A stretch of DNA of 64,000 bases, from the NCBI GenBank assembly GCA_029262235.1, contig JAJCZU010000007.1:123630-187629 (forward strand). Direction: 5' to 3'. A program made the position numbers and the translations under genes. This document shows positions 1-63,967 of the stretch, piece after piece. Source of the DNA: Candidatus Eiseniibacteriota bacterium (lineage in GTDB: Bacteria > Orphanbacterota > Orphanbacteria > Orphanbacterales > Orphanbacteraceae). Positions within the stretch are counted from its first letter, which is position 1. Every line of letters starts with the position of its first letter. The notes below the pieces were generated by a model, which worked only from the letters and a program-made list of their open reading frames with translations, ran no database searches and had not been told where the DNA came from.

Positions 1-17
1 TGGGAAGGAAAAGAAGG

Positions 18-59
18 GGCTCGCCTCGGAATCAATTCTCTCGACCGCTCGGCCTGGGG
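18..59 (+). repeat. Half copy of hairpin family 1
   Basis: This stretch matches the 5' arm and first part of the core of the element at 78-173. It breaks off at GGCCTGGGGA, and the sequence starting TGGGAAGGAA then restarts at 61, giving an exact 60-bp direct duplication of the left half. It therefore looks like a truncated or slipped copy without its 3' arm. Confidence 0.7.
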
Positions 60-77
60 ATGGGAAGGAAAAGAAGG

Positions 78-173
78 GGCTCGCCTCAGAATCAATTCTC
101 TCGACCGCTCGGCCTGGCCAAATGGCCAAGTAAAGAGGCCTCGCGGATCCGAGAACTGATTCCGCGCCGAGGC
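78..173 (+). repeat. Hairpin element family 1, copy A
   Basis: Outer arms 78-100 and 151-173 are imperfectly complementary over 23 nt. Inside lies the family core: CGACC, an inner stem (CCGC..GGCC with GGCC..GCGG), the paired boxes TGGCCA-AA-TGGCCA, then AAGTAAAGAGG and GGATCC. A T-rich tract (CTTTCGTTTCCTTTTT) follows the 3' arm, so on the plus strand the element also resembles a factor-independent terminator. The element and its flanks are duplicated at 246-341. I do not recognise the family. Confidence 0.75.
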
Positions 174-245
174 TTTCGTTTCCTTTTTGGAAGCGGGAAG
201 AAAAGAGAAGAGTAGAAGGCGGAAGGGATGGGAAAGGAAAGAAGG

Positions 246-341
246 GGCTCGGCTCGGAATCAATTCTCTCGACCGCTCGGCCTGGCCTAATGGCCAAGTA
301 AAGAGGCCTCGCGGATCCGAGAACTGATTCCGCGCCGAGGC
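246..341 (+). repeat. Hairpin element family 1, copy B
   Basis: Arms 246-268 and 319-341 are complementary with two or three mismatches. The core is nearly identical to copy A, with TGGCC-TAA-TGGCCA in the apical part. Flanks are shared with copy A (TGGGAAAGGAAAGAAGGGG before, CTTTCGTTTCCTTT after), so A and B arose by duplication of about 130 bp with a 168-bp period. Confidence 0.75.
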
Positions 342-529
342 TTTCGTTTCCTTTATTGAGGGCGGGAAGAGAAGAGGCGGAAAGGCGAGCGGAGTGGGCG
401 GTGCAGTTGGGGTGGCGAGCGATGGCGAACCGCTTGCGCTCTTGATTCTTCCCGCCGCGCGGCGGGAATGTCGAGGCGCCACGGAACAGAAACCATCGCA
501 GTGCTTCGTGCGATGAAGATGTTTTCCTT

Positions 530-620
530 CCGGGGCGCGACGGGCTTCCCGGATCCCGCGAGGCTCCGTACTTGGCCAGTTGGCCAGCCGAGCGGGTCGA
601 GGGAAGTTCGAGCGCCCCGG
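530..620 (-). repeat. Hairpin element family 1, copy C
   Basis: This is the first of three 91-nt copies in reverse orientation. Outer arms start CCGGGGCGC and end GCGCCCCGG. Read on the minus strand, the core is CGACCCGCTCGGC, TGGCCA-AC-TGGCCA, AGTACGGAG, CCTCGCGGGATCCG. The arms differ completely from copies A and B but are again complementary to each other. Confidence 0.75.
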
Positions 621-668
621 ACCAGAAAGCCCTCTTCTGTTCGCTCGTGCGATGAAGATGTTTTCCTT

Positions 669-759
669 CCGGGGCGCGATGAGCTTCCCGGATCCCGCGA
701 GGCTCCGTACTTGGCCAGCTGGCCAGCCGAGCGGGTCGAGGGAAGCGCAAGCGCCCCGG
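669..759 (-). repeat. Hairpin element family 1, copy D
   Basis: This 91-nt copy lies exactly 139 bp after copy C, with the same CCGGGGCGC / GCGCCCCGG arms. The apical boxes are TGGCCA-GC-TGGCCA. The left flank (GCGATGAAGATGTTTTCCTT) is identical to the left flank of copy C, showing that element plus flank was duplicated as one unit. Confidence 0.75.
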
Positions 760-807
760 GCCGGGGTTCCTTATTCCTGTCGCATGAACAGCGCAGATGA
801 ATCCATT

Positions 808-898
808 CCGGGGCGCGACGGGCTTCCCGGATCCCGCGAGGCTCCGTACTTGGCCACTTGGCCAGGCGAGCGGGTCGAGGGAGGCTCAAGCGCCCCGG
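808..898 (-). repeat. Hairpin element family 1, copy E
   Basis: This 91-nt copy lies exactly 139 bp after copy D. Arms are CCGGGGCGC / GCGCCCCGG and the apical boxes are TGGCCA-CT-TGGCCA on the plus strand. It ends 57 bp before the start codon of the ABC importer operon, so transcription into that operon must begin inside or just after it, or read through it. Confidence 0.75.
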
Positions 899-955
899 AC
901 CGGGTTTTATCTTTTGCAAAACAATCGCGGGTGTATCCCGCTTCGAGGAGATCTC

Positions 956-2002
956 ATGTTTCGTTTGCGTAGCTGGCCTGTTCGAATCGTACTCTTGTCT
1001 ACGGTGCTCGTGTTCCTGTCATGCTCGCGCGACGGCGGGCAAGGGGCGGAGAACGGCGGCGACTCGTCGAAGGAATCGCTGGTGCTGTATTGCGGGCGGA
1101 GTCAGAGCCTGGTGGACGACATCGTGAAGATGTACGAGGAGAAGTCGGGCGTCGACGTCCGCATCAAGTACGGCAACACGGCAGAACTCGCGCTGGCGAT
1201 TCAGGAAGAGGGCGCGAAGAGTCCGGCGGATGTCTTCTGGGCTCAGGACGCGGGCGCGCTGGGAGCGCTTTCGCGCAAGGGGCTGCTGCAGACGCTTCCG
1301 CCGGTCGTGATCACGCGGGTTCCCGGGCTGTTCCGCAATACGTCGCATCACTGGGTCGCGACGAGCGGACGCATGCGCGTGTTCGCGTACAGCCCCGATC
1401 GTGTTTCGCTGGACGACATGCCGTTTTCGGTCTTCGAACTCGCGGAGGAGAAGTGGAACGGCCGGGTTGGCTGGGCGCCCACGAACGCTTCGTTCCAGTC
1501 GTTCGTAACGGCGATGCGCGTGATGAGCGGCGAGGAGCGTACGGAGAACTGGCTTCGCGGGATGAAGGCGGGTGGCGCGAAGTCGTACCCCAAGAACACG
1601 GCGATCATCGAAGGCATCTACGCGGGCGAAATCGACCTCGGACTGCCGAACCACTACTACCTGCTTCGGTTCAAGGCAGAGGACCCGAATTTTCCGGTCG
1701 AGCAGTCCTCGTTCGACGCCGGTGATGTCGGCAATCTCGTGAATATCGCGGGCGTGGGTGTTCTGGGTTCGAGCGGCAACGCGACGGGCGCGCAGAAGTT
1801 CATCGAGTTTCTGCTTTCGGACGAAATGCAGAAGTACCTCGTCGAGAACACGCACGAGTACCCCGTGATCCCGATCCTGCACGACCACGATGGTCTCCTG
1901 ATGTATGAGGCGCTGGAAGAGCTGGCGCCCCCGATCGAACTCGCGGATCTCGAGGACCTCGACGGCACTCTCGCTCTTCTCCGGAAGGTCGGGCTTTTGT
2001 AG
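956..2002 (+). CDS. ABC importer substrate-binding lipoprotein, probably ferric iron (FbpA-like)
   Basis: Predicted periplasmic solute-binding protein of 348 aa. The start at 956 is chosen because GAGGAG lies 5 nt upstream and it opens a lipoprotein signal peptide: a hydrophobic stretch from residue 10 ends in the lipobox FLSC with Cys23. The mature part begins with a type-2 periplasmic-binding fold (LVLYCGRSQSLVDDIV). Adjacent tyrosines 234-235 in NHYYLLRF match the ferric-ligand pair of FbpA-type proteins. It is followed directly by a permease and an ATPase. Thiamine or polyamine as substrate cannot be excluded, but the Tyr pair favours Fe(III). Confidence 0.88.
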   Translation: MFRLRSWPVRIVLLSTVLVFLSCSRDGGQGAENGGDSSKESLVLYCGRSQSLVDDIVKMYEEKSGVDVRIKYGNTAELALAIQEEGAKSPADVFWAQDAGALGALSRKGLLQTLPPVVITRVPGLFRNTSHHWVATSGRMRVFAYSPDRVSLDDMPFSVFELAEEKWNGRVGWAPTNASFQSFVTAMRVMSGEERTENWLRGMKAGGAKSYPKNTAIIEGIYAGEIDLGLPNHYYLLRFKAEDPNFPVEQSSFDAGDVGNLVNIAGVGVLGSSGNATGAQKFIEFLLSDEMQKYLVENTHEYPVIPILHDHDGLLMYEALEELAPPIELADLEDLDGTLALLRKVGLL

Positions 2003-3562
2003 ATGCGCCGGCGGCCGCCCTGGTACCTGACTTTCTTTCCCGCGCTCGTTTCGATCGCGGTGGGCCTGCCGATCGCTTACCTCGCGGTCCGTGCGTCCGA
2101 AGTCGATGCCGCAATGTTGCGGGAAATTCTGCTGCGCGAACGAAACCTGCTGCTCGTACGCAACACGCTCGGTCTCATGCTCGGCGTCATCGCCGGAAGT
2201 TCGCTGCTCGCGGTGCCGCTTGCCTGGCTGGCCACGTCGACGAACATTCGGGGGCGCGGCATCGTGACACTTCTGTCCGTGCTTCCGCTCGCGATACCGG
2301 GCTACGTTCTCGGCTACTCTCTCCTCGCGCTCGGCAGTCCGTACGGTCCCGTGCAGGAGCTCTTCGGCGTGACTCCGTTCGCGCGCGCGACCGGGTTCTG
2401 GGGATCGCTGGTCGCGCTCACGCTCTACAACTTTCCGTTTCTCTTTCTCACCCTGCGAACCGGATTCCTCGAGATCGATCCGGCGCTCGGGGAATCGGCA
2501 CGCGCGCTCGGCCTCTCGCCGTTCGCCGCGTTCCGGCGCGTTACGCTGCCGCAGCTCTGGCCGGCGTTCGCAAGCGGCGCCCTCCTCGTGGGGCTCTATG
2601 TTCTCGGCGATTTCGGCGTGGTGAGTCTCATGCGTTTCGAAACGTTCAGCTACGCGATCTATCTGCAGTACGCCGCCTCGCTCGACCGTGCGTACGCGGC
2701 CTGGCTCGCGCTCGGACTGCTTGCCTTGACGATTACGATTCTCGCGATCGAGTTTCGCGTTGCCGGCCGCATCCTGCTCGAGCGCGCGGGCAAGGGATCC
2801 CGGCGCGAACGAAAGCTCTTTCGGCTCGGTCGCTGGGCGTGGCCGGCTTACACGTTCGTCGGGACCGCGCTTCTCTTTTCGCTGGCACTTCCGATCGGAT
2901 CGATCCTGTTCTGGACGTCGCGCGTACGGGATTTTTCGTTCAGCGACCTGCTTCCGTCGCTCTTTGATTCCCTGTCGGTCAGCATCCCCGTTGCGCTCGT
3001 CGCGACGGCGCTTGCGCTTCCCGTTGCGCTGCTCGCCGGGCGGTTTCCGTCGGGCTTGTCGCGCGGTTTCGAGCGCGGGGCGTATCTTGGTTACGCCATT
3101 CCACCGCTCGCACTCGCACTCGGTTTCATCTTCCTGACACTGAAGAGCGTCCCGTTTCTCTATCAGTCCCTCGCGCTCCTGGTTGCCGCGCTCTCGGTCC
3201 ATTTTCTGGCGCTGGCGCTCTCGCCGATCCGGTCCGCGGTTCGTACTGCGTCACGATCCCTCGAAGAAGCGTCCCGGGCGCTCGGCCGTGGTCGCTGGGA
3301 AACATTCCGTTCGGTATCGCTTCCGTTACTCTGGCCCGGTGTCGCCGGCGCCGGACTGCTCGTCTTTCTATCGGCGATGAAAGAGCTGCCGGTTTCGTTT
3401 CTTCTGGCGCCGCTCGACTTTCAAAGCCTGCCACTGCGCGTGTACGGTTACACGACAGAAGCGATGTTCGCCGAAGCCGCGCCGTACGCGCTTGCGATTC
3501 TCATGCTTTCTTCGCTCGGCGCGACGCTGGTCCTTCGCGTGAGCCCGGGGGGTGCCCGATGA
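2003..3562 (+). CDS. ABC importer permease, two fused domains (FbpB-like)
   Basis: Inner-membrane permease of 519 aa with two fused membrane domains of about six helices each. Both EAA loops that contact the ATPase are visible: ESARALGLSPFAAFRRV near residue 165 and EEASRALGRGRWETFRSV near residue 420. This fused arrangement is typical of iron(III) and thiamine importers. The ATG directly follows the stop of the binding protein, and the end overlaps the ATPase start by 4 bp (ATGA), so the three genes should be translated together. Confidence 0.9.
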   Translation: MRRRPPWYLTFFPALVSIAVGLPIAYLAVRASEVDAAMLREILLRERNLLLVRNTLGLMLGVIAGSSLLAVPLAWLATSTNIRGRGIVTLLSVLPLAIPGYVLGYSLLALGSPYGPVQELFGVTPFARATGFWGSLVALTLYNFPFLFLTLRTGFLEIDPALGESARALGLSPFAAFRRVTLPQLWPAFASGALLVGLYVLGDFGVVSLMRFETFSYAIYLQYAASLDRAYAAWLALGLLALTITILAIEFRVAGRILLERAGKGSRRERKLFRLGRWAWPAYTFVGTALLFSLALPIGSILFWTSRVRDFSFSDLLPSLFDSLSVSIPVALVATALALPVALLAGRFPSGLSRGFERGAYLGYAIPPLALALGFIFLTLKSVPFLYQSLALLVAALSVHFLALALSPIRSAVRTASRSLEEASRALGRGRWETFRSVSLPLLWPGVAGAGLLVFLSAMKELPVSFLLAPLDFQSLPLRVYGYTTEAMFAEAAPYALAILMLSSLGATLVLRVSPGGAR

Positions 3563-4728
3563 ACAGGCGCAGCGACAGGACAAGGGCGATGCCCGACAAC
3601 GCCTCGACGCGAGAGCCGCTGCTCGCGGTGCGCGACCTCACGCTCGTGCATCCGGAATCGAACGTGCCCGCGGTGAACCACGTTTCGTTCGATGTGGCCG
3701 CGGGTGAGATCTACGCGCTGCTCGGGCCGTCCGGCGCGGGGAAGACAACCATTCTTCGACTGCTTGCGGGATTCGAAGTGCCGGAAACGGGCACAGTGTC
3801 GATGCGCGGTGAACTCTTGAGCGGCCGGGGGAAGATGGTACCGCCCGAGAAGCGTCACATCGGTTTCGTGTTTCAGGAGTTCGCGCTCTTCCCGCATCTC
3901 TCGGTCGAAGAGAACGTGTGTTTCGGCATTCGCGTCGGTTCCGGGCCGCGGGCCCACGCGCACGAAGAAGTCAAAGCCTGCGGCCGCGATCTGCTCGAGC
4001 GCATGCAGATCGAACCCCTCTCCGCGCGCATGCCGAGCCGGCTTTCCGGTGGGGAGCAACAGCGCGTGGCGCTGGCCCGTTCTCTCGCTCCGCGCCCGCC
4101 GCTCCTGCTTCTCGACGAGCCGTTCTCGAGCCTCGACGCGGATTTGCGCGGCACGATCCGGAGCGAGGTACGCGGGTATCTGAAGAAGCACGACATGGCC
4201 GCGATTATCGTGACGCACGACCAGGAAGAGGCGCTCGCGTTCGCGGATCGGGTGGCCGTCATGCGGGACGGGCGCATCGTGCAGGAAGGGCCGGCCGAGG
4301 AACTGTACAAGACGCCGAAGAACGCTTATGTCGCGCACTTTCTCGGAGGATGCAATGTGCTCGAAGGAGAGGCGACCGGGGATCGCGCGATGACGGCGAT
4401 CGGCGAGGTAATGCTGACAACGGAGGCGACCGGTTCGGTTCGCATTGCGCTTCGCCCGGAGCATCTGGCGATCGAAACGGCGAGTGGCAGGACGAGCGAT
4501 ACGATTGCCGATGCTGGCGCGGACACACACGGGAACGCGGGGAGTGAAGGCGTCCCGTCCCACTCCCTCGCCACTGTGTTGCAGCGCGACTTCCACGGGC
4601 ACGACATTACGTATCGGGTGATGGCGAGAGGAGTCACGCTCATCGTAAAATCGGGCTACGACGCAAGCTGGAGAACCGGAGATACTGTGCGATTGATTGC
4701 GCGCGAAAAAGGCGTGGTCGTGGAGTAG
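3559..4728 (+). CDS. ABC importer ATPase (FbpC/PotA type)
   Basis: ATP-hydrolysing subunit of 389 aa for the preceding permease. Walker A is GPSGAGKT (56-63), the Q-loop Gln is 106, the signature is LSGGEQQR (162-169), Walker B is LLLLDEP (182-188) and the switch His is 220. After residue 245 a C-terminal TOBE-type region follows (IALRPEHLAI). A later ATG at 3589 is an alternative start, but the 4-bp overlap with the permease favours 3559. A 24-bp gap separates it from a convergent gene, with no clear terminator. Confidence 0.92.
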   Translation: MNRRSDRTRAMPDNASTREPLLAVRDLTLVHPESNVPAVNHVSFDVAAGEIYALLGPSGAGKTTILRLLAGFEVPETGTVSMRGELLSGRGKMVPPEKRHIGFVFQEFALFPHLSVEENVCFGIRVGSGPRAHAHEEVKACGRDLLERMQIEPLSARMPSRLSGGEQQRVALARSLAPRPPLLLLDEPFSSLDADLRGTIRSEVRGYLKKHDMAAIIVTHDQEEALAFADRVAVMRDGRIVQEGPAEELYKTPKNAYVAHFLGGCNVLEGEATGDRAMTAIGEVMLTTEATGSVRIALRPEHLAIETASGRTSDTIADAGADTHGNAGSEGVPSHSLATVLQRDFHGHDITYRVMARGVTLIVKSGYDASWRTGDTVRLIAREKGVVVE

Positions 4729-4752
4729 CACTGCAGTACGTGAATCGTCTTC

Positions 4753-5406
4753 CTATTCCTCCGCCGCCATCGCCCTCATGTAGCTCAGCAGCCCCGAATT
4801 CGCATTGATGATCGCGTGAAGTCCCATCGAAAGCCAGAGCGAACCCGACACGAGATAAAGCGCACAGAGAACGAGCCCGAAGAAGAAGAGCCGCACGACG
4901 TTCTGCAATCCCTGAAACGAGTGCGCCATCGCGAACACGAACGAGGTGGCGAGTACGCTCATCCACGGCGAGAGCCAGCGCTCGGCGAACCACATCAGAT
5001 ACCCGCGATAGAAGATCTCTTCGGACACGGCGGCAGCCACGGCGAGAATGCCGAACAGAAAGAGACCGGCGGAGGTTTTGGGCAAGAGCGGACTTCCGAG
5101 GCTGATATTGAGGCCGGCGTCCTGGCCCGCTGCGATCTTCGTGCGCACCTGGAGGGCGTACGAAAACAATCCGATCGCCACGAATCCGACGAACGCGGCG
5201 CCCACCACAAAGCCGCCGCCGCCGGGTGCCGTGAGGCCGAGCCCGTCGTTCAGCCGGCCCTGGCTGCGCCAGAACGCAAGCACGATCGAGGCGAAGACGA
5301 CCTGCCAGAGAATCGTGATCAGATAGCCGCGTACGCGGGCGGAGTCGACGCCGGCGCTGATGCCGCGCAGGAAAAACGGGCGCCAGATCACCAGGTCGTA
5401 GATCAT
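4753..5406 (-). CDS. CPBP-family intramembrane metalloprotease (CAAX protease-like)
   Basis: Membrane protein of 217 aa with about six helices. It carries the three motifs of the CPBP/Abi family: EExxxR at 129-134 (EEIFYR), a His at 162 in FAMAHSFQG, and a His at 197 in GLHAIINANSG. These are the predicted metal ligands and catalytic glutamate. The frame remains open upstream of the ATG and encodes residues that look like the start of a membrane helix, but no ATG, GTG or TTG occurs there, so the start is uncertain. Its substrate cannot be told. Confidence 0.85.
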   Translation of the reverse strand: MIYDLVIWRPFFLRGISAGVDSARVRGYLITILWQVVFASIVLAFWRSQGRLNDGLGLTAPGGGGFVVGAAFVGFVAIGLFSYALQVRTKIAAGQDAGLNISLGSPLLPKTSAGLFLFGILAVAAAVSEEIFYRGYLMWFAERWLSPWMSVLATSFVFAMAHSFQGLQNVVRLFFFGLVLCALYLVSGSLWLSMGLHAIINANSGLLSYMRAMAAEE

Positions 5407-5450
5407 GGACGCGACGAAGACGGCTCCGAGGAACCAGAAGTCATGCGCGT

Positions 5451-6620
5451 TTAGCGAAATGCCGCTTCCCCCGTGAGGTCCTGCCCGATGATGAGGGCGT
5501 GAATGTCGTGCGTGCCCTCGTACGTCTTCACGGACTCGAGATTCAGCATGTGACGGATCACATGGTACTCGGACGTGATGCCGTTCGCGCCCATGATGTC
5601 ACGCGCGAGCCGCGCGCATTCGAGCGCCATCGCGCAGTTGTTCCGCTTCGCCATCGAAACGTGATTGAACTTCGCCTGCCCCTCGTCCTTCATCCGGCCG
5701 AGGCGATAGGCGAGCAGCTGCGCTTTCGTGATCTCGCTCGCCATCCAGACGAGTTTGCGCTGCACGAGTTGAAAGCCCGCGATCGGCTTGTCGAACTGCT
5801 TGCGCTCCTTCGCATAGGTGAGCGCGCGGTGATAGCAGTCCATCGCAGCGCCGAGCACGCCCCATGCGATCCCGTAGCGCGCCGACGAAAGACACGCAAG
5901 CGGCGAAACGAGACCGTCGGATTCGGGCAGTAGATTGGCCGCCGGAATTTCACAGTCGGCGAGAATGAGCTCGGAAGTATCCGAGGCGCGCAGCGAGAAC
6001 TTGCCCTTCGTTTCCTTCGAGCTGAAGCCCGGCGTGCCCTTTTCAACGAGAAATCCGCGCACGCGGCCATCGAGTTTCGCCCATACAACGGCGATGTCCG
6101 CCATCGTTCCGTTCGTGATCCACATCTTCGCGCCGTTCAGCACGTAACCCTTGTCGGTTTTCTTCGCGGTCGTGATCATGCCGCCCGGGTCGGATCCGTA
6201 GTCCGGCTCGGTAAGCCCGAAGCACCCGATCTTCTTCCCTTCGGCCATCTGGGGCAGCCACTCCTGCTTCTGCTCTTCGGTGCCGAAACTGTAGATCGCG
6301 AACATCGCGAGCCCGCCCTGCACCGAAACGAAACTGCGAAGGCCGCTGTCGCCGCGTTCGAGCTCCTGCATGACAAGCCCGTACGCCACGTTATTGATGC
6401 CCGCACACCCGTACTCTTCCGGCAGGTTGCTGCCGAAAACGCCGAGCGCGGCGAGGCGCGGGATGAGCTCGGTCGGGAACGTGCACTCTTCGAAGTGATG
6501 TTCGATGCCGGGCATGAACTGATTCGAAACGAAGTCGCGCACGGAGTTCCGTACAGCCTTCTCCTCGTCGGTGTAAAGTTCTTCCATGTTGAAGTAATCG
6601 AGGGCGACAAAGTCTTTCAT
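5451..6620 (-). CDS. Acyl-CoA dehydrogenase, glutaryl-CoA dehydrogenase type
   Basis: FAD-dependent acyl-CoA dehydrogenase of 389 aa. The C-terminal motif YEGTHDIHALIIGQ places the catalytic Glu at about residue 368. That glutamate position and the DIHALI context match glutaryl-CoA dehydrogenases, which oxidise and decarboxylate glutaryl-CoA to crotonyl-CoA. FAD-contact motifs (CFGLTEPDYGSD, WITNG) are present. The start at 6620 is chosen because its ATG overlaps the stop of the hydratase gene by 4 bp; an upstream Met is less likely. Co-translation with an enoyl-CoA hydratase fits a degradation pathway through crotonyl-CoA. A general short-chain acyl-CoA role is the alternative. Confidence 0.9.
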   Translation of the reverse strand: MKDFVALDYFNMEELYTDEEKAVRNSVRDFVSNQFMPGIEHHFEECTFPTELIPRLAALGVFGSNLPEEYGCAGINNVAYGLVMQELERGDSGLRSFVSVQGGLAMFAIYSFGTEEQKQEWLPQMAEGKKIGCFGLTEPDYGSDPGGMITTAKKTDKGYVLNGAKMWITNGTMADIAVVWAKLDGRVRGFLVEKGTPGFSSKETKGKFSLRASDTSELILADCEIPAANLLPESDGLVSPLACLSSARYGIAWGVLGAAMDCYHRALTYAKERKQFDKPIAGFQLVQRKLVWMASEITKAQLLAYRLGRMKDEGQAKFNHVSMAKRNNCAMALECARLARDIMGANGITSEYHVIRHMLNLESVKTYEGTHDIHALIIGQDLTGEAAFR

Positions 6621-7399
6621 GATGTTCCTTCGCTCCACGCGGGAGCGCGTTTTTCGAGAAACGCCTCGATGCCTTCCAGCATGTCCGGCTCTCGAATGAG
6701 TTCGTCGAGATACATTGTTTCGTTCCGGTCGATCTCGGCGAAAATCGCTTCGCGGTCGAGGTCGGCGTACGAACGTTTCGCGAGGCGCAGAATCGCGCCG
6801 CTCTTTCCGCAGAGCGCGCGGGCGAAATCCGCGCAGGCGCCGGGGAACGAGTCTTCATTATACACGTGATTCACGAGCCCGATCCGGAGCGCTTCGCTTG
6901 CGTCGAACGTCTCCCCCGAAGCAATGATCTCGGCGGTCTTGTGCCGCCCGACGATCCGGCGAAGCAGCGGCCCGGCAGCAGGCGGAAAGCAGCCGAGCAG
7001 AATTTCCGGGTGGCCGAACTTCGCGCGCTCGGACGCCAGGACCATGTCGCAGGCCGCGGCGAGTTCGAGCCCGCCGCCGAGGCACACGCCCTGCACGCCG
7101 GCGATCGTAAGCGCGGGCGCGGCGAGTAGCTCCTTGATCAGCCCATGAAACGTGGCGAGCATCTGCACGACGGGTTCCGGCCTGTGCTCTTCGACGCTCG
7201 CGCCTGCTGAGAACGCTTTCGGGCCTGACGAGCGAAACAGCACGACCTTGACTGCGGCGTTCTCGCGGAGAGCGCGGAGAGCGGTCGTAATCTCGCCGCA
7301 CATCGTGGCGTCCAGAATATGCACCGGGGGCGCGCTGAGCGTAATCGTCGCGAGCCCCGCGTCGATCGCCAGTTCGATCTTTTCGTTCGTTTTCCTCAT
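6617..7399 (-). CDS. Enoyl-CoA hydratase/isomerase family protein (crotonase fold)
   Basis: Crotonase-fold enzyme of 260 aa. The oxyanion-hole segment GGGLELAAACD and the following PEILLG both keep the glutamates that act as acid/base in classical enoyl-CoA hydratases, so hydratase activity is likely. The segment FSAGASVEEHRPEPV resembles the dienoyl-CoA hydratase subgroup of anaerobic aromatic degradation, but this is only suggestive. Start 7399 is the first ATG consistent with family length; a TTG at 7435 is also possible. It overlaps the dehydrogenase gene by 4 bp. Confidence 0.88.
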   Translation of the reverse strand: MRKTNEKIELAIDAGLATITLSAPPVHILDATMCGEITTALRALRENAAVKVVLFRSSGPKAFSAGASVEEHRPEPVVQMLATFHGLIKELLAAPALTIAGVQGVCLGGGLELAAACDMVLASERAKFGHPEILLGCFPPAAGPLLRRIVGRHKTAEIIASGETFDASEALRIGLVNHVYNEDSFPGACADFARALCGKSGAILRLAKRSYADLDREAIFAEIDRNETMYLDELIREPDMLEGIEAFLEKRAPAWSEGTS

Positions 7400-7474
7400 G
7401 GAGTAAGCGTACCCGCGGGGGGAGCCGAGGGTCAAGAAGGGTCGGTGGAGGGCGGCCGCTGCTCAGGGAAATCG

Positions 7475-8296
7475 CTACGCGCCCGGGGGCTCCCAGAGAT
7501 CGAGGGGGCGCCCGATGATCTTCGCGAGCGCCGCGACATCCTCCTCGAGCAGATCCCAGATCCTGCGTTTCGTTTCGAGCCGAAACTCCGGTTTCTCGTC
7601 GATTCTGTTCAGCAGGAGCTTCGAGCCCGCCCTGCGGATCGGGCCGGGGGCCATTGACAGCACTCGATTCGCCGTGGCCGCGCCGGGGAAGTTCTTCAAA
7701 TACGCCGTCTTTGCGGAGATGTTGCGCGGGGCGACATCGATCGTTTCGAACGGTTCCGGCGCCAGCCCCAGAAACTTTGCGAGAGCGCGGAGCGTGTCGC
7801 GCGGACCCCTGACATACTCTTCGAACAGCAGAATGCGCACCTGGGCGTGCGGGAACAGATCGAGGTACGCCTGGATCTGGTGGGCGTATCGCGTGCGGTT
7901 CACGTACATCGGATCGCGCAGCACGTGCTCTTCGTGCCCCCCCTTGATGCGCCCCCGGATCATGTCGTGCGCGCATTGCGAGATCACGCGCTTCACCGGG
8001 TGCCGCACGATGTAGATCAGCTTGAGGTGCGGGTTGTAGCGGTGCAGGCGCTCGTGCACGTCCGCGTATTCGGGCAGGAACGTATACGACGTCGACGCCT
8101 CCCCGTAGAGCGCGCCCTCGTGCATGTCGTAGAGCGCGTGGTACTCGGGAAGACGCTCTTCCCAGGCGTCGACCGTGCTGAACCAGTGCGGTTCCTTCTC
8201 GCGGCAGAACGAAACGCCGGGATGCGCCGCGAGCTGGGCCGCCAGGCTCGTCGTTCCGCACTTCTGCCCGCCTATGATCATGAAGTCCGCTCGCAT
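7475..8296 (-). CDS. PAPS-dependent sulfotransferase domain protein
   Basis: 273-aa protein with the two PAPS-binding signatures of sulfotransferases. The 5'-phosphosulfate loop GGQKCGTTSL is at 9-18. The 3'-phosphate site is YIVRHPVKRVISQ, with Arg98 and Ser106. Such enzymes move sulfate from PAPS to carbohydrate, lipid or protein hydroxyls; the acceptor cannot be read here. It starts at an ATG close to the divergent NUDIX gene and lies 75 bp upstream of the hydratase gene, probably as a separate unit. An in-frame ATG at 8281 is an alternative start. Confidence 0.85.
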   Translation of the reverse strand: MRADFMIIGGQKCGTTSLAAQLAAHPGVSFCREKEPHWFSTVDAWEERLPEYHALYDMHEGALYGEASTSYTFLPEYADVHERLHRYNPHLKLIYIVRHPVKRVISQCAHDMIRGRIKGGHEEHVLRDPMYVNRTRYAHQIQAYLDLFPHAQVRILLFEEYVRGPRDTLRALAKFLGLAPEPFETIDVAPRNISAKTAYLKNFPGAATANRVLSMAPGPIRRAGSKLLLNRIDEKPEFRLETKRRIWDLLEEDVAALAKIIGRPLDLWEPPGA

Positions 8297-8330
8297 GCGG
8301 CTAGATTAGCACACGGCGAAAGAGTCGGGG

Positions 8331-8336
8331 TACAAT
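8331..8336 (+). promoter_or_regulatory. Possible -10 box for NUDIX gene
   Basis: TACAAT lies 20 bp upstream of the GTG start, in a short A/T-containing divergent gap. No good -35 hexamer is seen at the usual spacing. Confidence 0.3.
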
Positions 8337-8356
8337 GGGCGGGGAAAGGAACGCAC

Positions 8357-8950
8357 GTGATTTCACCACTCGACCAGAAACTCGTCGGCCGCCTTCTCGC
8401 CGCGAGCCCCGACGACCCGGACGGTTTTGCCGACCGGGAGCGCCGCGCCGCCTCGTTCCTTCTATTATATGAAGAGGACGTGACGAAGATTCTTCTCGTG
8501 AAGAAGAAGACCACGCCGGGCTATCGGTGGAGCGGCCAGATCGGCATGGTCGGCGGGTTCATCGAGCCGGAGGACGAGTCAGACCTCGACGCCGCGTACC
8601 GGGAGCTCGAAGAGGAGCTGCAGCTGCCGCGTGACGAAGTCGAAACGCTCGGCTCGCTCGGCCATTTTCCGACGCAGGTCCCGGCGACCTCCGTTCATGT
8701 GTTCGTCGGGTACTGGGATGGAAAGCGGACGCCCGTGCCGTATCCGGTCGAGATCGAAAAAATCGTTTCCCTGAAGCTCGAAACGCTGCTCGATCAGCAC
8801 GCGCGGCACGGCTACTCAGGCCGGCACCCGGCCGAGATCGGCGGACGGTATCTTCGCTATCCGACGCGGTCGGGAGATATCTGGGGCGTTACGGGGCGGA
8901 CTGTGCACGCACTTCTCGAGCTTCTCGCGATCGGACGAGCAGAAGCGTGA
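8357..8950 (+). CDS. NUDIX hydrolase, CoA pyrophosphatase-like
   Basis: 197-aa NUDIX protein. The box GGFIEPEDESDLDAAYRELEEEL spans about 67-89 with the REL-EE core that binds the divalent metal. The preceding WSGQIGMVGG and following length resemble NudL/YeaB-type CoA pyrophosphatases, which cleave CoA or acyl-CoA diphosphate bonds; the exact substrate is inferred. The GTG at 8357 is chosen because AAAGGA lies 6 nt upstream; the frame is open much further back but without plausible protein. Its last 62 bp overlap the end of the convergent gene. Confidence 0.82.
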   Translation: MISPLDQKLVGRLLAASPDDPDGFADRERRAASFLLLYEEDVTKILLVKKKTTPGYRWSGQIGMVGGFIEPEDESDLDAAYRELEEELQLPRDEVETLGSLGHFPTQVPATSVHVFVGYWDGKRTPVPYPVEIEKIVSLKLETLLDQHARHGYSGRHPAEIGGRYLRYPTRSGDIWGVTGRTVHALLELLAIGRAEA

Positions 8951-11312
8951 CCGCAGCCAGTGCGTAGGTCGCGGCACCGATCATGAGCACGGCCGTGTAT
9001 CCCATGAAGATCGCGAACACCGTCGCGAGCACGGACGCGCAGACCGACGTGGCGCCGTTCACACCCCAGACCCATGGCAGCATCCCCTCCCGCAATCGCG
9101 AAAGCTGACGAACTCCGAGCGGAAACGGCATCCCCATCAGCACGGCGGGAAGCGCGAGCAGCGCGACCGAAAGAAGCACGCGCTGCCAGTACGGAAGCGC
9201 GAGCGAAGCATCGAGAATCGGCGGCACGACCGCGGCATAAACCAGAACGAGCACGGCGATGAGCGCGGCGGGCAGAAGGAACAGACGCTCGGGGATACGA
9301 TTCGAAAGCACACTCCCCGCGCCGCTCCCGACAAGCATCGAAAAGAGGACAACGGTCAGCGCGTTCACGGGATGCCCGAGCAGCAGAATGAAGCGCTGCA
9401 TGAGCGGGATCTCCACAAGCAGATACCCGAGCCCCAGACAGAAGAAGTAGAGAAGATAGAGCGCGCTCGAACCCCCGCGGGGAAACGACTCGCCGCCGCT
9501 CAGAAAGAGCGGCAGCATGATACACGTGGACGTCAGAACGAGCACGATCCCCAGAAGCGCCACCAGCACGAAGATCGCGCGCACGTTGTTCTGCACGACC
9601 CCCTGCTCGATCTCCTCGCCGCCGCCGAAAATGCGAAACGCGTCACGCGCATGCAGCATGTAGAAGAAAAACGGGCGGTCATCGACGGGCGCGGAAATGT
9701 CGACCGGGTACGCCGCTTCGAACTCGGCGCGCCGCTCCCCCATGATCGCTTCGAACTCGGGCAGGTTCTGCTGTCCCGGCGCGTACACCACGTCGAACTT
9801 GAGGTCCTCCGCGATCTTCTGAATGTGAGCGACTTCACCCGGATCCCACGGCGTGCGTTTTACGAGCAGCGTTCCGACGCCGTCACGGAACTCGCGCCGC
9901 CGGTACGCCCAGTCCCACGTCGAGCGTTTCACGACCATGATGTGAGCCGCCGGGTTCGTGATCCCGAGATCGCGCAGCGCCGCGACCGCGATCCCTGTCA
10001 GTCGGAGCGTTTCGATCGGGCGTCCTTTGAAGTACCAGCGCGACATCGTCAGGATGCCGTCGTCGTTCAGATGCTCCAGAAAATCGCGGAACGCCTCTTT
10101 CGTATACAGGTTGTTCTCGCTCAGCACGTACGCGCCGGCGGAAGACGCCGCCCACGTGTCGATCAGCGAGGCCTGGATGATGTCGAACCTTTCGTCGGCG
10201 CGACGTACCCAGCTCCGCCCCTCGTCGTTCACGATCCGAACGTCCGGTCGCGAGTAAAGGCCGCCCGACCAGTCGCCGAACTTGTCGCGCACCGCGCTGA
10301 TAATCGCCTCGTTGATCTCCACTGCCGTCACGCGTTTCTGGCCGAACGAAAGCGCCGTGAGTACATCCCGCCCGCCACCGGGGCCGATCACGAGTACCTC
10401 GGCATTTTCGCGAAGCGTGTGCACGAGTGCGGAAACGTCGAACTGCAGCGCTTTGACTTTCTCGAAATCACCGTCGAACTGCACGATCGGGGTCCCCGCT
10501 TCGGCGTCGATCTTGAGCCAGAGCGTTTCGGGCTTCGGGCCGTTGTAGACCTCGGACGTCGCCCAGTTGACCGTGCCTTCCTGCGTGACGGTGATCCGGG
10601 CGAGCGGATTCCAGTCGCTGTGAATCGTGCCCACTTCGAGGCGATCCTTCGAGAAGTCGATGCGGAGCCACCCCTTCGTCTCGTGCCCGACAAGCACTGC
10701 CACGAGCACGCCCAGCACGAGCAAACGTCTGTTGCGCGCGCCCGCGCCGAGCGACGCGGCGAAGAAGAGCGACGCGACGGCCGCCAGTATCGCGGTGGCC
10801 ACAATTACACCCGGCCCCGTGAGATAGCCGAGCAGCGGGACGACGAGCAGGCAGCCGAGTCCGGCGCCGATCAGATCCATGCCGTAGACGAGCCCGATCC
10901 GTTGAGAGAATCGGGAGAGCGCAAGCGCAAGCGCAAGCCCCCCGAACAGGAACGGCAGGGCGGCGAACGTGTAGATCAGCAGCAGCGAAACCGCCGCCGG
11001 AAGCGACACCCGGTACACGAAGGGAACGCCCAGTATCAGCACGTACGCGATCGGCACGAAGATCGCGAAAAGCATCGAGTGGCGCGCCATCTGGTGATGC
11101 ACGCGATCGCGCGGAAACCAGTCGGGACGGAAATGGAGCAGCAGCCCGCCGACGGCCATGCCGAAGAGCGCGAGCGAAATGGCGAGAAACGCGAAGTGAT
11201 ACCAGAGGATGACGGAAAAGATGCGGGTCAGCGCGATCTCGAGCGCGAGAAGGGCGCCCGAAAGTACAAAAACCCCGATCAGGGTGCTGCGAGTCGGTCC
11301 GGGTGTGGTCAC
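8889..11312 (-). CDS. Membrane-embedded spermidine synthase-like protein
   Basis: Large protein of 807 aa with three parts. An N-terminal membrane block has about seven helices (1-230). A soluble Rossmann methyltransferase/aminopropyltransferase-like domain follows (about 250-540), with the nucleotide motif VLVIGPGGGRDVLTAL near 305. A second membrane block follows (about 560-790). Such fusions are annotated as polyamine aminopropyltransferase-like, but the standard catalytic aspartate-tyrosine pattern is not obvious, so the reaction is uncertain. The GTG start has GGAG about 8 nt upstream. The 3' end overlaps the NUDIX gene by 62 bp, tail to tail. Confidence 0.8.
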   Translation of the reverse strand: MTTPGPTRSTLIGVFVLSGALLALEIALTRIFSVILWYHFAFLAISLALFGMAVGGLLLHFRPDWFPRDRVHHQMARHSMLFAIFVPIAYVLILGVPFVYRVSLPAAVSLLLIYTFAALPFLFGGLALALALSRFSQRIGLVYGMDLIGAGLGCLLVVPLLGYLTGPGVIVATAILAAVASLFFAASLGAGARNRRLLVLGVLVAVLVGHETKGWLRIDFSKDRLEVGTIHSDWNPLARITVTQEGTVNWATSEVYNGPKPETLWLKIDAEAGTPIVQFDGDFEKVKALQFDVSALVHTLRENAEVLVIGPGGGRDVLTALSFGQKRVTAVEINEAIISAVRDKFGDWSGGLYSRPDVRIVNDEGRSWVRRADERFDIIQASLIDTWAASSAGAYVLSENNLYTKEAFRDFLEHLNDDGILTMSRWYFKGRPIETLRLTGIAVAALRDLGITNPAAHIMVVKRSTWDWAYRRREFRDGVGTLLVKRTPWDPGEVAHIQKIAEDLKFDVVYAPGQQNLPEFEAIMGERRAEFEAAYPVDISAPVDDRPFFFYMLHARDAFRIFGGGEEIEQGVVQNNVRAIFVLVALLGIVLVLTSTCIMLPLFLSGGESFPRGGSSALYLLYFFCLGLGYLLVEIPLMQRFILLLGHPVNALTVVLFSMLVGSGAGSVLSNRIPERLFLLPAALIAVLVLVYAAVVPPILDASLALPYWQRVLLSVALLALPAVLMGMPFPLGVRQLSRLREGMLPWVWGVNGATSVCASVLATVFAIFMGYTAVLMIGAATYALAAVTLLLVRSREAREVRAQSAP

Positions 11313-11643
11313 GTTCTACTCCGCAGCGAGTGAGCCCTTCCCGGGACCTCGCCGATACCTGCGTCATTTTAACATGGATGATCGATTCGGTCGTACCGGA
11401 CAGTACCTGGTCAGCGGGTGACCACGATGTGGGCGTCGATTTTCGCCCGGACCGCGACGGGGGGGCGCCTGGGGCGTGCACGTAGTGGTTGCTCCCGGCA
11501 CGGATCGTGCATTGCCATACTGCCGTGTGTGGGAAGCGGGCCCAGCTCGCGACCTCGAAGATAGGCGGTCGGGACGATCCATCCGATCAGATGAGGATGG
11601 CGATGCAGTGAGGGGCTGGTCGCATGGAATCGAACCGCCGTCA

Positions 11644-11716
11644 GGACCGGGAGAGGATCCCGTCGTTCCCGCTGAATGCCCCCCAGCGGGGGCGGCGGAG
11701 ATCCCCCTCCCGGTCC
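11644..11716. repeat. Long orphan hairpin, 73 nt
   Basis: Outer arms GGACCGGGAGAGGATC (11644-11659) and GATCCCCCTCCCGGTCC (11700-11716) pair almost fully. An inner stem CCCGCTG / CAGCGGG (11668-11674, 11684-11690) closes a 9-nt loop. It lacks the cores of hairpin families 1 and 2. No T tract follows on either strand, so it is not a standard terminator. Confidence 0.6.
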
Positions 11717-11769
11717 AGGTGTGCAACAGAAGCTCTCAAAATCGATGTGTCCGTGCGGGATTCCTCTCG

Positions 11770-11775
11770 TATACT
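11770..11775 (+). promoter_or_regulatory. Possible -10 box (TATACT)
   Basis: TATACT lies 46 bp upstream of the ATG at 11822, at a sensible distance for a short leader. No clear -35 box is seen 17 bp upstream. Confidence 0.4.
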
Positions 11776-11821
11776 GACACCGATTCATGACTTCGCGCCC
11801 CCCCGTCTTCAGGAGGAAGCA

Positions 11822-12229
11822 ATGACGCGCATCGCCATCATCTTGATTCTGGTCCTGGCATTGATGACACCCCGCGTGGTGCACGCGGAAGAGAACGCGA
11901 TGCTCACGGTATCGAAAACAATCGTGTACGGAGGTCTCGCCGGCTTGATTCTCGGAAGCGCCATCGCGCTTGCCGCGGACGATAACGAGGGCGACATCAT
12001 CAAATGGTCGTTCGTCGCGGGAACGTTTGCCGGTCTCGGCGTCGGCATCCATTCCGTTTCGAAGAGAAGCGGCCCGGGAAGCGCCGTTCTGTCGATCGAG
12101 GGAGCCGATGTTGCGTGGAACACGCCGGCGCCTTCGTTTGCGTTCGAGTCGGATCCACTGGCAACAGGTGAGTACGACAAGAGCGCGAAACTTGCTCTCC
12201 TGTCGTTTCGCGGGAATGCCGGCCGTTAG
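11822..12229 (+). CDS. Small exported protein of unknown function
   Basis: 135-aa protein, not recognised. AGGAGG lies 5 nt before the ATG, which fixes the start. Residues 1-22 form a Sec signal peptide (hydrophobic IAIILILVLALM, cleavage after VVHA). The mature part has two small hydrophobic segments rich in Gly and Ala (YGGLAGLILGSAIALA and FVAGTFAGLGVGI) separated by an acidic turn, compatible with a membrane hairpin. Its stop overlaps the stop of the convergent CorC-type gene by a few bases. Confidence 0.75.
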   Translation: MTRIAIILILVLALMTPRVVHAEENAMLTVSKTIVYGGLAGLILGSAIALAADDNEGDIIKWSFVAGTFAGLGVGIHSVSKRSGPGSAVLSIEGADVAWNTPAPSFAFESDPLATGEYDKSAKLALLSFRGNAGR

Positions 12230-13542
12230 TTTGCGGCCGACCGCTGTTCGGGAATGCGGATGAACCGGGCCCGTTTGATACGCTGATCGACTACGCGCTC
12301 CACGATGAGCGTGCCTTCGTCGAGCGAGACTCTGTCTCCGGCTTCGGGTACGCCGCCCTTCATGCGCAGTATGATGCCCGCAACGGTATCGACATCCGTC
12401 TCCGCGAGCGTGACGCCCGTCTTTTCCACGAACAGGCTGACCGGGCAGCTTCCGTCCAGCAGAAACTCGTTCGGGCCGAGTGGGATTACGGCGGGAATTT
12501 CGCGATCGAATTCGTCCTGAATTTCACCGACGAGCTCTTCGATCACGTCTTCGAGCGTCACGAGCCCGAGCGTGCCGCCATACTCGTCGAGCACGATACC
12601 GAGATGTACTTTGCGCCGCTGAAACGCACCCAGGATGCGATCGAGCGGCGTGTGTTCCGGGAAGAACAGAATCTCGCGCTTCAGATCCTTCATGCTGACG
12701 GTGTCGGTCGCCGTACGCGCCGCCTTGTACAGGTCTTTCACGTGCACGAAACCGATGATGTGGTCGATGTTCTCCACACAAAGCGGGAAGCGTGTAAAGC
12801 CGCAACGCTCCGCGATCTTCAGGTTTTCTTCGGGATCGCTCTCGGCCAGTAGATACACGATATCGGGGCGCGGAACGAGAATCTGATGCGCTTCCCGATC
12901 ATGAAACTCGAACACCCGCTCGAGCATCGTCGTCTCTCCCTTCGTGATCTCGCCCGACTCCTCCGAGTGGCTCAGCAGAGCGCGAATCTCTTCCTCGCTG
13001 TGGGCCTGCGACAGAGCCTCGTCGGTCGGGACTCCGACCAGACGCAGGAAGAAGTTCGCGGATCCGTTCAGCGCGAAGATGAACGGATAGGCCACGATGT
13101 AGAACCAGCGGAGAGGGTACGCGCAGTGCAGGGAAGTGGCCAGCGGTCGCCTGATCGCGAAGGATTTCGGGGCCATTTCACCGAGAACGATATGCAGGTA
13201 TGTGATCAGCACGAATGCGAGCGAAAATGCCGCGGCGTGGATGAGCCCCTCGGATTCGACGCCGGCCAGGTGCATGAGCGGCCTGAGGTAGCGGGCAATG
13301 AAAGGCTCACCGACCCAGCCGAGACCGAGAGACGCAATCGTGATTCCGATCTGGCAGGCCGAGAGATACTCGTCGAGGTGGCTCTGGATGTGTTGCGCGG
13401 TGCGGGCACGACGGTTGCCCTGCTCTACCAGGATTCCAAGACGCGCGGAGCCGACCTTCACGAAGGCGAACTCGGCGGCAACGAAGAATCCGTTCAGGGC
13501 TACGAGAAACAGTACGATGAAAGCTTGTGAAACCGGTTCCAT
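12226..13542 (-). CDS. CorC/HlyC-type membrane protein with CNNM and CBS domains
   Basis: 438-aa protein with the order typical of the hemolysin C / CorC / TlyC family. An N-terminal CNNM (DUF21) membrane domain of three or four helices (1-190) is followed by a pair of CBS domains that probably bind adenine nucleotide (about 205-330). A CorC_HlyC transporter-associated domain closes the chain (about 345-425). Family members are linked to Mg2+/Co2+ efflux; haemolysis is not implied. The ATG at 13542 opens directly into the first helix. A CoA-binding gene lies 18 bp upstream on the same strand and may share its transcript. Confidence 0.9.
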   Translation of the reverse strand: MEPVSQAFIVLFLVALNGFFVAAEFAFVKVGSARLGILVEQGNRRARTAQHIQSHLDEYLSACQIGITIASLGLGWVGEPFIARYLRPLMHLAGVESEGLIHAAAFSLAFVLITYLHIVLGEMAPKSFAIRRPLATSLHCAYPLRWFYIVAYPFIFALNGSANFFLRLVGVPTDEALSQAHSEEEIRALLSHSEESGEITKGETTMLERVFEFHDREAHQILVPRPDIVYLLAESDPEENLKIAERCGFTRFPLCVENIDHIIGFVHVKDLYKAARTATDTVSMKDLKREILFFPEHTPLDRILGAFQRRKVHLGIVLDEYGGTLGLVTLEDVIEELVGEIQDEFDREIPAVIPLGPNEFLLDGSCPVSLFVEKTGVTLAETDVDTVAGIILRMKGGVPEAGDRVSLDEGTLIVERVVDQRIKRARFIRIPEQRSAAN

Positions 13543-13560
13543 GCGGCTCTCAACGAGCCA

Positions 13561-13932
13561 CTACACCTCCTCTGGCGACAGTCCGATCGCGCGGATGCTG
13601 CACGCCAGCAGCGGCCGAAGACCCAGCGATTCCGCGAGTCGAACGAGTTCGTCGCTCTCCGCACCCGGGTTCACATACAGCTTCTTCGGCCTTTTCTTTG
13701 CAATGTCCTCGAGCAACGTCACGCCGATGGACGGCGGTACGTAGAGGGTGACGACATCGAGCTCGGACGGAATGTCCAGGATCGATCGGTAGGCTCGCAA
13801 TCCTTCGACTTCGTCGACGCGCGGGTTTACGGGACAAACCCGGTACCCCTTGCGGGCGAAGGCCCGTACGGCCTTGTTCCCGAACTTGTTACGGTCGTTG
13901 GATGCTCCGATGACGGCGACACTTTTTCCCAT
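13561..13932 (-). CDS. CoA-binding domain protein (YccU-like)
   Basis: 123-aa single-domain protein of the CoA_binding_2 family. The N-terminal GASNDRNKFGN is the Rossmann-type loop after the first beta strand, and VPPSIGV and VNPGAES follow as later cofactor-contact segments. Length matches stand-alone members, whose biochemical role is mostly unknown. It lies 18 bp upstream of the CorC-type gene on the same strand. No catalytic residues are evident. Confidence 0.85.
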   Translation of the reverse strand: MGKSVAVIGASNDRNKFGNKAVRAFARKGYRVCPVNPRVDEVEGLRAYRSILDIPSELDVVTLYVPPSIGVTLLEDIAKKRPKKLYVNPGAESDELVRLAESLGLRPLLACSIRAIGLSPEEV

Positions 13933-14275
13933 AATGATTCCTGATCATACCAGATTCCGAGCCACGTTTCGTTTCCTTCGTTTCCGCCCCGACCGCTCGT
14001 TATCCTCGTGGCCGCGGGAGGCGACGAACGGGCCGGTCTTCGTCGATGGACGGCAGCACTTGCTGAGCGAAACTTATCCATTTTTCTGCAATGAAAATTC
14101 AGACCGAATAAATACTTGTCACCCCGAACAGCGGAGGGTAACATTTTGGAGCGGTTCGAAAGAGTCGCTTCGGGGTAGGACCCGTGCTGGTGGCTTCCGT
14201 AACAGGGACCATCCGGCGGACGTAGCTCGGGCCTCCCCGTTTTTGTTTGCCCCGAAGTGAAGGGGGTAACAATTC
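13933..14275. promoter_or_regulatory. 343-bp leader/promoter region with repeated CCCCGAA..GGGTAACA motif
   Basis: No gene is seen. An AT-rich patch (about 14070-14120) stands out and probably holds divergent promoters. A 22-bp motif occurs twice in direct orientation (14122-14143 and 14250-14271), 17 of 22 bases identical. The first copy sits in an inverted repeat TGTCACCC-N11-GGGTAACA (14117-14143). The second overlaps the ribosome binding site of the gene at 14276, where CCCC could pair with the GGGGG of the Shine-Dalgarno stretch and mask it. Confidence 0.4.
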
Positions 14276-16474: not shown

Positions 16475-16520
16475 GCGCGTAAAATCAGGGGAACCGGGTC
16501 CACTTGGGAGGAAACACAAA

Positions 16521-17729: not shown

Positions 17730-17812
17730 GTAGTACGCCCACTTGAGTACGACAGTGGTGCGGGGAGCCATCTCCTCGCACCTCTTTGTCGGGCCCCCGC
17801 GTAAGGATCTCC

Positions 17813-18538: not shown

Positions 18539-18660
18539 CCCCCCGAAAACGACCCCCTCAAAGATTTCCGCGTCTGATCCGATACGAAGAAGGACGGAAG
18601 ACCGCCCCGGCCGAGGTGCCGCGACGGAGAACTACGCCCGGATCATCGGAAAAGAGCGGC

Positions 18661-19960: not shown

Positions 19961-19973
19961 GGGGACGCTCCGG

Positions 19974-46079: not shown

Positions 46080-46125
46080 CCGGATTCCCCCTCGTCCCTC
46101 GTCCCTCGTTCCGTTTGTGAAGAGA

Positions 46126-46219
46126 AGGCGCGGGGCCGCTGTTCTCCTCGACCGCCCGTCCTGGCCAAATGGCCAAGTACGGAGGCCGGGCGGATCCGTA
46201 GAACAGCGGCCCCGCGCCT
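46126..46219 (+). repeat. Hairpin element family 1, copy F
   Basis: The arms 46126-46145 and 46200-46219 are perfectly complementary over 20 bp and unrelated in sequence to the arms of the copies at 78-898. The core is shared: CTCGACCGC, TGGCCA-AA-TGGCCA, AGTACGGAGG and GGATCCG. The inner stem reads CCGCCCG / CGGGCGG here, where copies A and B have TC opposite TC, a compensatory change. Confidence 0.8.
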
Positions 46220-46311
46220 CCCCTCCGGCACGCGTGCCAGGGGGAGGAACGGGAGAGGCGGGGTGAATTCTTCCCTGCGCCCCGAATCGGTTTCTTCATG
46301 CGAGTGCGCTT

Positions 46312-46378
46312 GACCGGATTCCCCTCGCCCCTCGTCCTGGCGTACGGCCAATGGGCCTCGGGGCTCGGGGAACCGGTC
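46312..46378 (+). repeat. Short family-2-like hairpin, copy J
   Basis: Arms GACCGGATTCCCC and GGGGAACCGGTC pair with one bulge. The inside holds TCGCCCCTCGTCCTGGCG and GGCCAATGGGCCTCGGGG, resembling the outer blocks of the longer family-2 elements at 55.7, 56.1 and 63.9 kb with the middle missing. Confidence 0.55.
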
Positions 46379-46492
46379 TGCGCGTGCGAGAGGAATACGG
46401 AGGAGCCGTTGGCGGCCGAGTGAGCGGTGAGCTTCGGGCTGAGTGTCACTGGCGCAAGCCCCCCTCCAATGAGCGCGAACAAGCTTCGAATG

Positions 46493-46571
46493 CGAGGAGG
46501 TCGTTCCTCGGAGCCGCGAGCCCCATTGGCCGGCCCGCCAGGGCGAGGGGCGGAGAGGAATGATCTCCTCG
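46493..46571 (-). repeat. Short family-2-like hairpin, copy K
   Basis: Arms 46493-46509 and 46555-46571 pair at 15 of 17 positions. Read on the minus strand the inside shows CGCCCCTCGCCCTGGCGGGC followed by CCAATGGGGCTCGCGGCTCC, again the two family-2 blocks without the long middle. Confidence 0.55.
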
Positions 46572-46612
46572 TGGACGAGCTTGTTCCGACTCTTCTCCTG
46601 CTCCTCACCCTC

Positions 46613-55560: not shown

Positions 55561-55680
55561 GCGCGCCCCTCATGATAATCGGCCCGAAAACAGGTGTACT
55601 CCCTGTAGTCCGTTATCGGCCGATTTCCGGAGTTCCATGAATGTGCTGGCTGGGGTTCGGGCCTGTCCTTTGCCCGGGCT

Positions 55681-55798
55681 CGGGCGTGTCGGCTCTCCTC
55701 GCCTCGCCCTGTCGGGTCGTGGGTCATCGTACTGTAATGAATACGCCGTGCCCCCGCCCCTCCAATGGGGCTCGGTCTGCGGGGAGCCGACACGCCCG
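55681..55798 (+). repeat. Hairpin element family 2, copy G
   Basis: Arms CGGGCGTGTCGGCT (55681-55694) and AGCCGACACGCCCG (55785-55798) are perfectly complementary over 14 bp. The inside starts CTCCTCGCCTCGCCCTGTCG and ends CCTCCAATGGGGCTCGG then CTGCGGGG, the two conserved blocks of the family, with a variable middle of about 40 nt. Confidence 0.75.
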
Positions 55799-55934
55799 GC
55801 CGGGGGTGAGCAGCATGCCCGACGGGGCGGGCAACGAATGGACCTTCGAAGATGGCCTTTTCGAGCGAGGGAAAGGGGAAAAGTTCGGAGAAGGTGAGGG
55901 AAGCGGATAGAGAAGTTGGAAAGGAAATAGAAGA

Positions 55935-55990: not shown

Positions 55991-56096
55991 CGAGGGGAAT
56001 GTAAGTCGGAGCGCCCGCGATTGACCCTTTCGGATTCTTCCCGCTTCAAGAGACGGGAGCGGCGAGGCGGTGTGCGCGGGCGGGCCGCGACCTCGG

Positions 56097-56224
56097 GCGC
56101 GCGGTTTCGGTTCCCCGCAGCCCCGAGCCCCATTGGAGGGCCGGGGGCACGGCGAACATGTTTCAATCGCTGTGACAGCAGGCCCGACAGGGCGAGGGCG
56201 AGGAGAAGCCGAAAACCGTGCGCC
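56097..56224 (-). repeat. Hairpin element family 2, copy H
   Basis: Arms GCGCGCGGTTTCGG and CCGAAAACCGTGCGC pair with small bulges; they differ from the arms of copies G and I. Read on the minus strand the inside begins CTTCTCCTCGCCCTCGCCC, TGTCGGGCCTGCTG and ends GCCGTGCCCCC, CCTCCAATGGGGCTCGGGGC, TGCGGGGAACC, the conserved blocks. Confidence 0.75.
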
Positions 56225-63834: not shown

Positions 63835-63967
63835 GCGCGAGCGGCGTGTCGGCTTCTCCTCGCCCTCGCCCTGTCGGGCTTGCTGACAAGAACATCGAAA
63901 CGAGAATGCCGTACCCCCGCTCCTCCAATGGGGCTCGGGCTGCGGGGAACCGACACGCCGCTCGCGC
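63835..63967 (+). repeat. Hairpin element family 2, copy I
   Basis: Arms GCGCGAGCGGCGTGTCGG (63835-63852) and CCGACACGCCGCTCGCGC (63950-63967) are perfectly complementary over 18 bp. The inside starts CTTCTCCTCGCCCTCGCCC, TGTCGGGCTTGCTG and ends GCCGTACCCCCGC, CCTCCAATGGGGCTCGGGC, TGCGGGGAA, as in copies G and H. It lies downstream of the last complete gene, with no T tract. Confidence 0.8.

Follow-up and report, generated by a model that had tools for sequence, protein, structure and literature searches.

The hairpin array upstream of fbpABC very probably belongs to a dispersed, structure-conserved, REP-like repeat family. Rather than being a dedicated leader, it was most likely inserted between iron-uptake genes, because the same genes lie 45 bp apart in the congener. 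The family is best read as genus-restricted and REP/BIME-like in layout, with longer elements, without a RAYT and with no tag noticed. The left end of the window, i.e., of the whole 64,000-nt stretch of DNA that was analysed, carries the following features:

1..903, no strand assigned: block of five hairpins plus a half copy, most likely inserted (86% identical block at locus L009; 45-bp empty site in congener contig C396)
1..57, minus strand: truncated (half) element, left end of the block (direct repeat D3; partial profile match at 36-57)
77..174, minus strand: family-1 hairpin element, strong subfamily (covariance model R1, 89.1 bits)
245..342, minus strand: family-1 hairpin element, strong subfamily (R1, 86.9 bits)
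527..624, plus strand: family-1 hairpin element, copy 1, 530-620 (R1, 86.2 bits; fold)
666..763, plus strand: family-1 hairpin element, copy 2, 669-759 (R1, 84.1 bits; fold)
805..902, plus strand: family-1 hairpin element, copy 3, 808-898 (R1, 87.3 bits; fold)
956..2002, plus strand: fbpA-like substrate-binding lipoprotein of an iron(III)-type ABC importer (SBP_bac_6; congener orthologue 90% identical)
2003..3562, plus strand: ABC importer permease (BPD_transp_1)
3559..4728, plus strand: ABC importer ATPase (ABC_tran; ORF list)

The block fills the space between fbpA and the stop codon of a TonB-dependent receptor gene, which ends one base before window base 1. The three 91-nt hairpins originally predicted to start at 530, 669 and 808 were recovered with the arms and TGGCCA-NN-TGGCCA boxes that had been described, and they fold at -64.8, -62.8 and -61.2 kcal/mol, far below shuffled sequences (z of -5.9, -6.3 and -4.6, respectively). 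Their folded strand is the plus strand, which is also that of fbpABC, and pair 680/749 of copy 2 is U-A where the equivalent pair 541/610 of copy 1 is C-G. The three copies are real, but the array is larger than had been thought, as the two minus-strand copies and the half copy precede them. The 139-nt units were likewise found, at 506-644, 645-783 and 784-922, the second and third being 88% and 76% identical to the first; the two minus-strand copies have a period of 168. The entire five-element block recurs, with 86% identity, on another contig (L009) between murJ and a convergent SDR (short-chain dehydrogenase) gene. Since the spacings in this sister block are 134 and 136, the supposedly exact 139-bp period is not conserved, and the equal distances seem to have followed from duplication rather than to reflect a constraint. 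The existence of the second block also argues against an assembly collapse or misjoin.

The suggestion that the array is a leader RNA of the ABC operon was not supported. On congener contig C396, only the 45 bp mentioned above separate the TonB-receptor stop from the start of fbpA, without an array, and the L009 block has neighbours other than an ABC operon; a leader specific to this operon was rejected on account of the empty site. The other suggestion, a protein-binding array, stays a candidate. Most likely, about 900 bp were gained here. Loss in the congener is the less likely alternative, to be kept in view because the comparison covers two species of the genus. Rfam gave no match in the window at the gathering threshold, and only chance-level matches in 1-1000.

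Further copies had been expected elsewhere in the genome, and indeed a search with R1, which was built from an alignment of 35 copies (A1), placed the family at about 80 distinct positions on several contigs, with BLAST against the same genome returning 27 hits. Every copy has a common core consisting of a stem, a purine loop, a short stem often with tandem G·A, a bulge and an apical hairpin of the TGGCCANNTGGCCA type. Two subfamilies can be recognized: the strong subfamily carries TGGCCANNTGGCCA, whereas the weaker one, which may be older, carries CCCATTGGC...GCCAGG. The exact core pattern had no match in 84,980 named species or in IMG/VR, and BLAST of plasmid and phage records gave no match to the elements. 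Apart from the block, the window contains three more family-1 elements and three members of a sister family:

46124..46222, minus strand: strong family-1 element between rsmG and a convergent threonine synthase gene (R1, 79.3 bits; absent from the orthologous site of the congener)
46300..46390, minus strand: weak family-1 element with a degenerate counterpart at the orthologous site of the congener (R1, 37.5 bits)
46487..46578, plus strand: weak family-1 element adjoining the threonine synthase stop codon (R1, 42.9 bits)
55657..55822, minus strand: family-2 hairpin with a CCAATGGGGCTCG core (orthologue in the congener)
56088..56222 (approximate limits), plus strand: family-2 hairpin in the orientation opposite to the 55657 copy (sequence; BLAST matches)
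63835..63967, minus strand: family-2 hairpin, separated from the contig end by 33 bases (pair changes on both sides relative to its orthologue)

Family 2 consists of longer hairpins with, as read from the sequences, the same layout of outer stem, purine loop, short tandem-G·A stem, one-sided bulge and apical part. An arm-based scan of 464 kb of this genome detected five long inverted repeats, all of them members of families 1 and 2; the sample was mostly not chosen for elements and includes the window, and its shuffled control gave one equally strong inverted repeat. The scan replaced a fold-based density of long hairpins, which was too lax. Three elements lie inside predicted genes (L062:4931-5145 and L064:7630-7728), so that intragenic copies may exist, the genes having been called by a script.

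Conservation of the fold was supported by covariation. Paired cells across the 35 copies reached 92.9% compared with 83.6% after shuffling, and the covariation score was 0.281, a value reached by none of the 500 shuffles, compared with 0.122. As shuffling ignores the relatedness of the copies, controls with slid pairing matter too, and in these the paired cells fell to 26-55%. Moreover, on the strand of the model, G·U pairs outnumbered A·C pairs by 37 to 3 within 10 bp of the core, with 32 and 28 further out. Near the core, one strand is therefore marked as the one that folds, whether in RNA or in single-stranded DNA. The model strand was the better folder in 50 of 59 copies, where composition alone gives 42 of 59. 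Together with the conservation between orthologues described below, covariation and the strand-specific G·U pairs back the original prediction of unit duplication under selection for structure. The hairpins are preceded on the model strand by a C-rich, G-poor stretch and followed by a C/T-rich one, in which T makes up only about 0.32; this flank composition is missing from ordinary 3' ends of the genome. With regard to intrinsic terminators, in which a GC hairpin runs directly into a U-tract, scanning 1-20000 for a consensus gave 27 terminator-like sites, with 19.7 expected.

Among the relatives, R1 found four copies in the congener; five other genomes of the family and 54 genomes beyond these gave no hit. 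Similarly, a 13-base core pattern occurred 27 times in this genome, nine times in the congener and not at all in the five family members. The congener assembly is fragmented, with contigs ending inside the intergenic region at L010, L014, L019 and L022; because they break at element sites, its count is too low and serves as a lower bound, which weakens the idea of a recent, species-specific expansion. Several copies are missing from the congener at loci for which a single contig of its assembly covers both flanks. Compared with its congener counterpart, the element after rplQ shows about one mismatch over 108 nt, while its flanks differ much more, and the congener copy (L093:442-536) carries within its inner stem a 26-bp insert that is itself a small hairpin. 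Compensatory changes between orthologous elements are present. The nearest genome with a name is a MAG that was deposited as Gemmatimonadetes (JABDJQ010000255.1); its threonine synthase is 90% identical. JABDJQ01 is also the placeholder name of a phylum listed, with 7 genomes, as Candidatus Femapiota (PMC11382960), to which the window may belong. Extra genes were seen between element pairs at L013 (a DNA-alkylation-repair-like protein), L015 and L077 (other ORFs), the congener having either no gene or another one there. A hairpin repeat of another kind, recognizable by its GGGGACACAATAC arms, was observed in a genome of the same family (L245:15498-15580 and L252:12436-12508).

The position of the elements relative to genes is strongly polar. 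With genes called by a simple script based on codon usage rather than by a standard gene finder, 57 regions bear elements. Most copies adjoin stop codons or sit between convergent genes, and convergent gaps are over-represented, accounting for 38 of 74 elements compared with 33 of 190 gaps. In regions with both orientations, the minus copy preceded the plus copy in 16 of 16 cases; in those with one orientation and both flanks, the 3' side of the model strand faced the nearer gene in 31 of 36.

ERIC sequences, other long palindromic repeats and MITEs have a similar length, are imperfect intergenic palindromes and can act as RNA hairpins. They were likened to the present family by description, the sequence comparison being the BLAST of plasmid and phage records without a match; MITEs are marked by terminal inverted repeats and a constant target-site duplication, and a duplication of constant length was not seen here. 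The possible direct repeats measured 6 bp at L015 and about 32 bp at window positions 46068-46100 and 46306-46337. The closest parallel is offered by the REP/BIME sequences of the GTAG and CGTC superfamilies, which are also palindromic and intergenic, occur in tens to hundreds of copies, in dimers and in clusters, and are located near 3' ends and between convergent genes, with opposite-orientation dimers as found here. Placement near stop codons and 3' ends is reported for REP elements in general, and the CGTC REPs likewise have no dedicated transposase (PMC3733652). However, REP/BIME units measure 20-40 bp, whereas the present elements reach about 100-140 nt or more (the model of about 100 nt plus longer arms) and, unlike REPs, possess a conserved internal-loop core and locus-specific complementary outer arms. 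REPs carry an unpaired GTAG or CGTC tag at one end, but no conserved tag is visible in A1, and the RAYT (Y1) transposase that goes with GTAG REPs was not found: PF01797 had no match in the 95.5% complete assembly. Passages in Petrillo et al. (2006; PMC1590033) describe prokaryotic stem-loops concentrated 3' of genes, some forming repeat families; this likeness, too, is by description, and the present family shows strong core covariation.

From these data a mechanism can be proposed, in which the array would be an inserted block of genus-restricted long palindromic intergenic repeats. An element transcribed in its folded direction may form a boundary at which transcripts heading into the neighbouring gene end or stall, the candidate layout being a C-rich, G-poor leader, a strong hairpin and a C/U-rich tail. 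At fbpABC, the block would part the TonB receptor gene from the operon and probably lessen their co-transcription. The elements might have spread as non-autonomous units with the help of some separate enzyme. A boundary role, read from sequence features, is conceivable and is put forward tentatively; the three components jointly, i.e., a REP-like family, a transcription boundary and mobility, make a plausible reading that stops just short of being probable.

Part of this evidence would also fit elements that are non-autonomous mobile DNA and nothing else, with the hairpin as the folded single-stranded DNA used in transposition and the gene boundaries as tolerated insertion sites. The empty sites in the congener, the arrays and the block duplication, the preference for convergent gaps and a strand-specific fold as in IS200/IS605-type systems all agree with it. 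Nevertheless, no Y1 transposase was found in the genome, conservation of the copy after rplQ far exceeds that of its flanks and tolerance alone does not explain the 16 of 16 polar ordering, which leaves this explanation rather unlikely. Another reading, put forward earlier for REPs, is that the elements act in the 3' UTR as RNA hairpins and either stabilise the transcript of the upstream gene or terminate it. Many copies do lie within tens of bases of stop codons, a placement shared with known REP elements (PMC3733652), but the fold-favoured strand is antisense to the 3' end of the nearest gene in 54 of 86 cases and, in the sense direction, no U-tract was noticed immediately behind the hairpin, so this role is improbable.

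Integron attC sites are known for a conserved fold with variable stem sequence and for their position just after stop codons. That the copies are attC-like folded recombination sites carrying gene cassettes is highly improbable despite the structure kept over varying stems, the adjacent stop codons and the extra genes between some element pairs (L013, L015 and L077), as no integron integrase scored above the cut-off and the copies, rather than forming direct-repeat cassette arrays, are scattered among core genes in inverted order. Identity with integron attC sites was rejected on the basis of the integrase search and this layout. All matches to the integron integrase model (TIGR02249) were below the cut-off here, likewise in all 14 control genomes. 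A 462-residue ORF (G000:C6:263991-264791) shows partial similarity to that model and is probably another tyrosine recombinase.

Returning to the REP-like family, its most unusual feature is that the outer arms are unrelated between loci and yet complementary within each copy. Between loci, their median identity is 0.30. Over 85 copies, the match of the left arm to its own right arm exceeds the cross-locus comparison (p of about 3e-22), and the excess also appears in ten copies with common inner arms (p of about 7e-5), both p-values being rough because the members of an array are not independent. Candidate causes are copying of the target upon insertion, insertion into hairpins that already existed, selection and repeated template switching. 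L012 and L016 are suggestive of target-derived outer arms, L018, L022 and L071 are not, and L015 seems to carry the entire palindrome as an insert. According to passages in PMC8794818, template switching has been proposed as an origin of RNA hairpins, and in the mechanism proposed here either this process or selection may keep the arms of each copy complementary. A more far-reaching and unlikely version would have strand-specific palindromes whose conserved core spreads while the arms are made, or remade, at each locus by flank copying or repeated template switching, and which shield genes against incoming transcription.

How long hairpins originate, and how their pairing is maintained, is still an open question. 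It becomes testable here by comparison, because the genome offers dozens of copies with one core, inner arms common to a subfamily and different self-complementary outer arms. Overall, the family adds a structured repeat to a lineage with few genomes.
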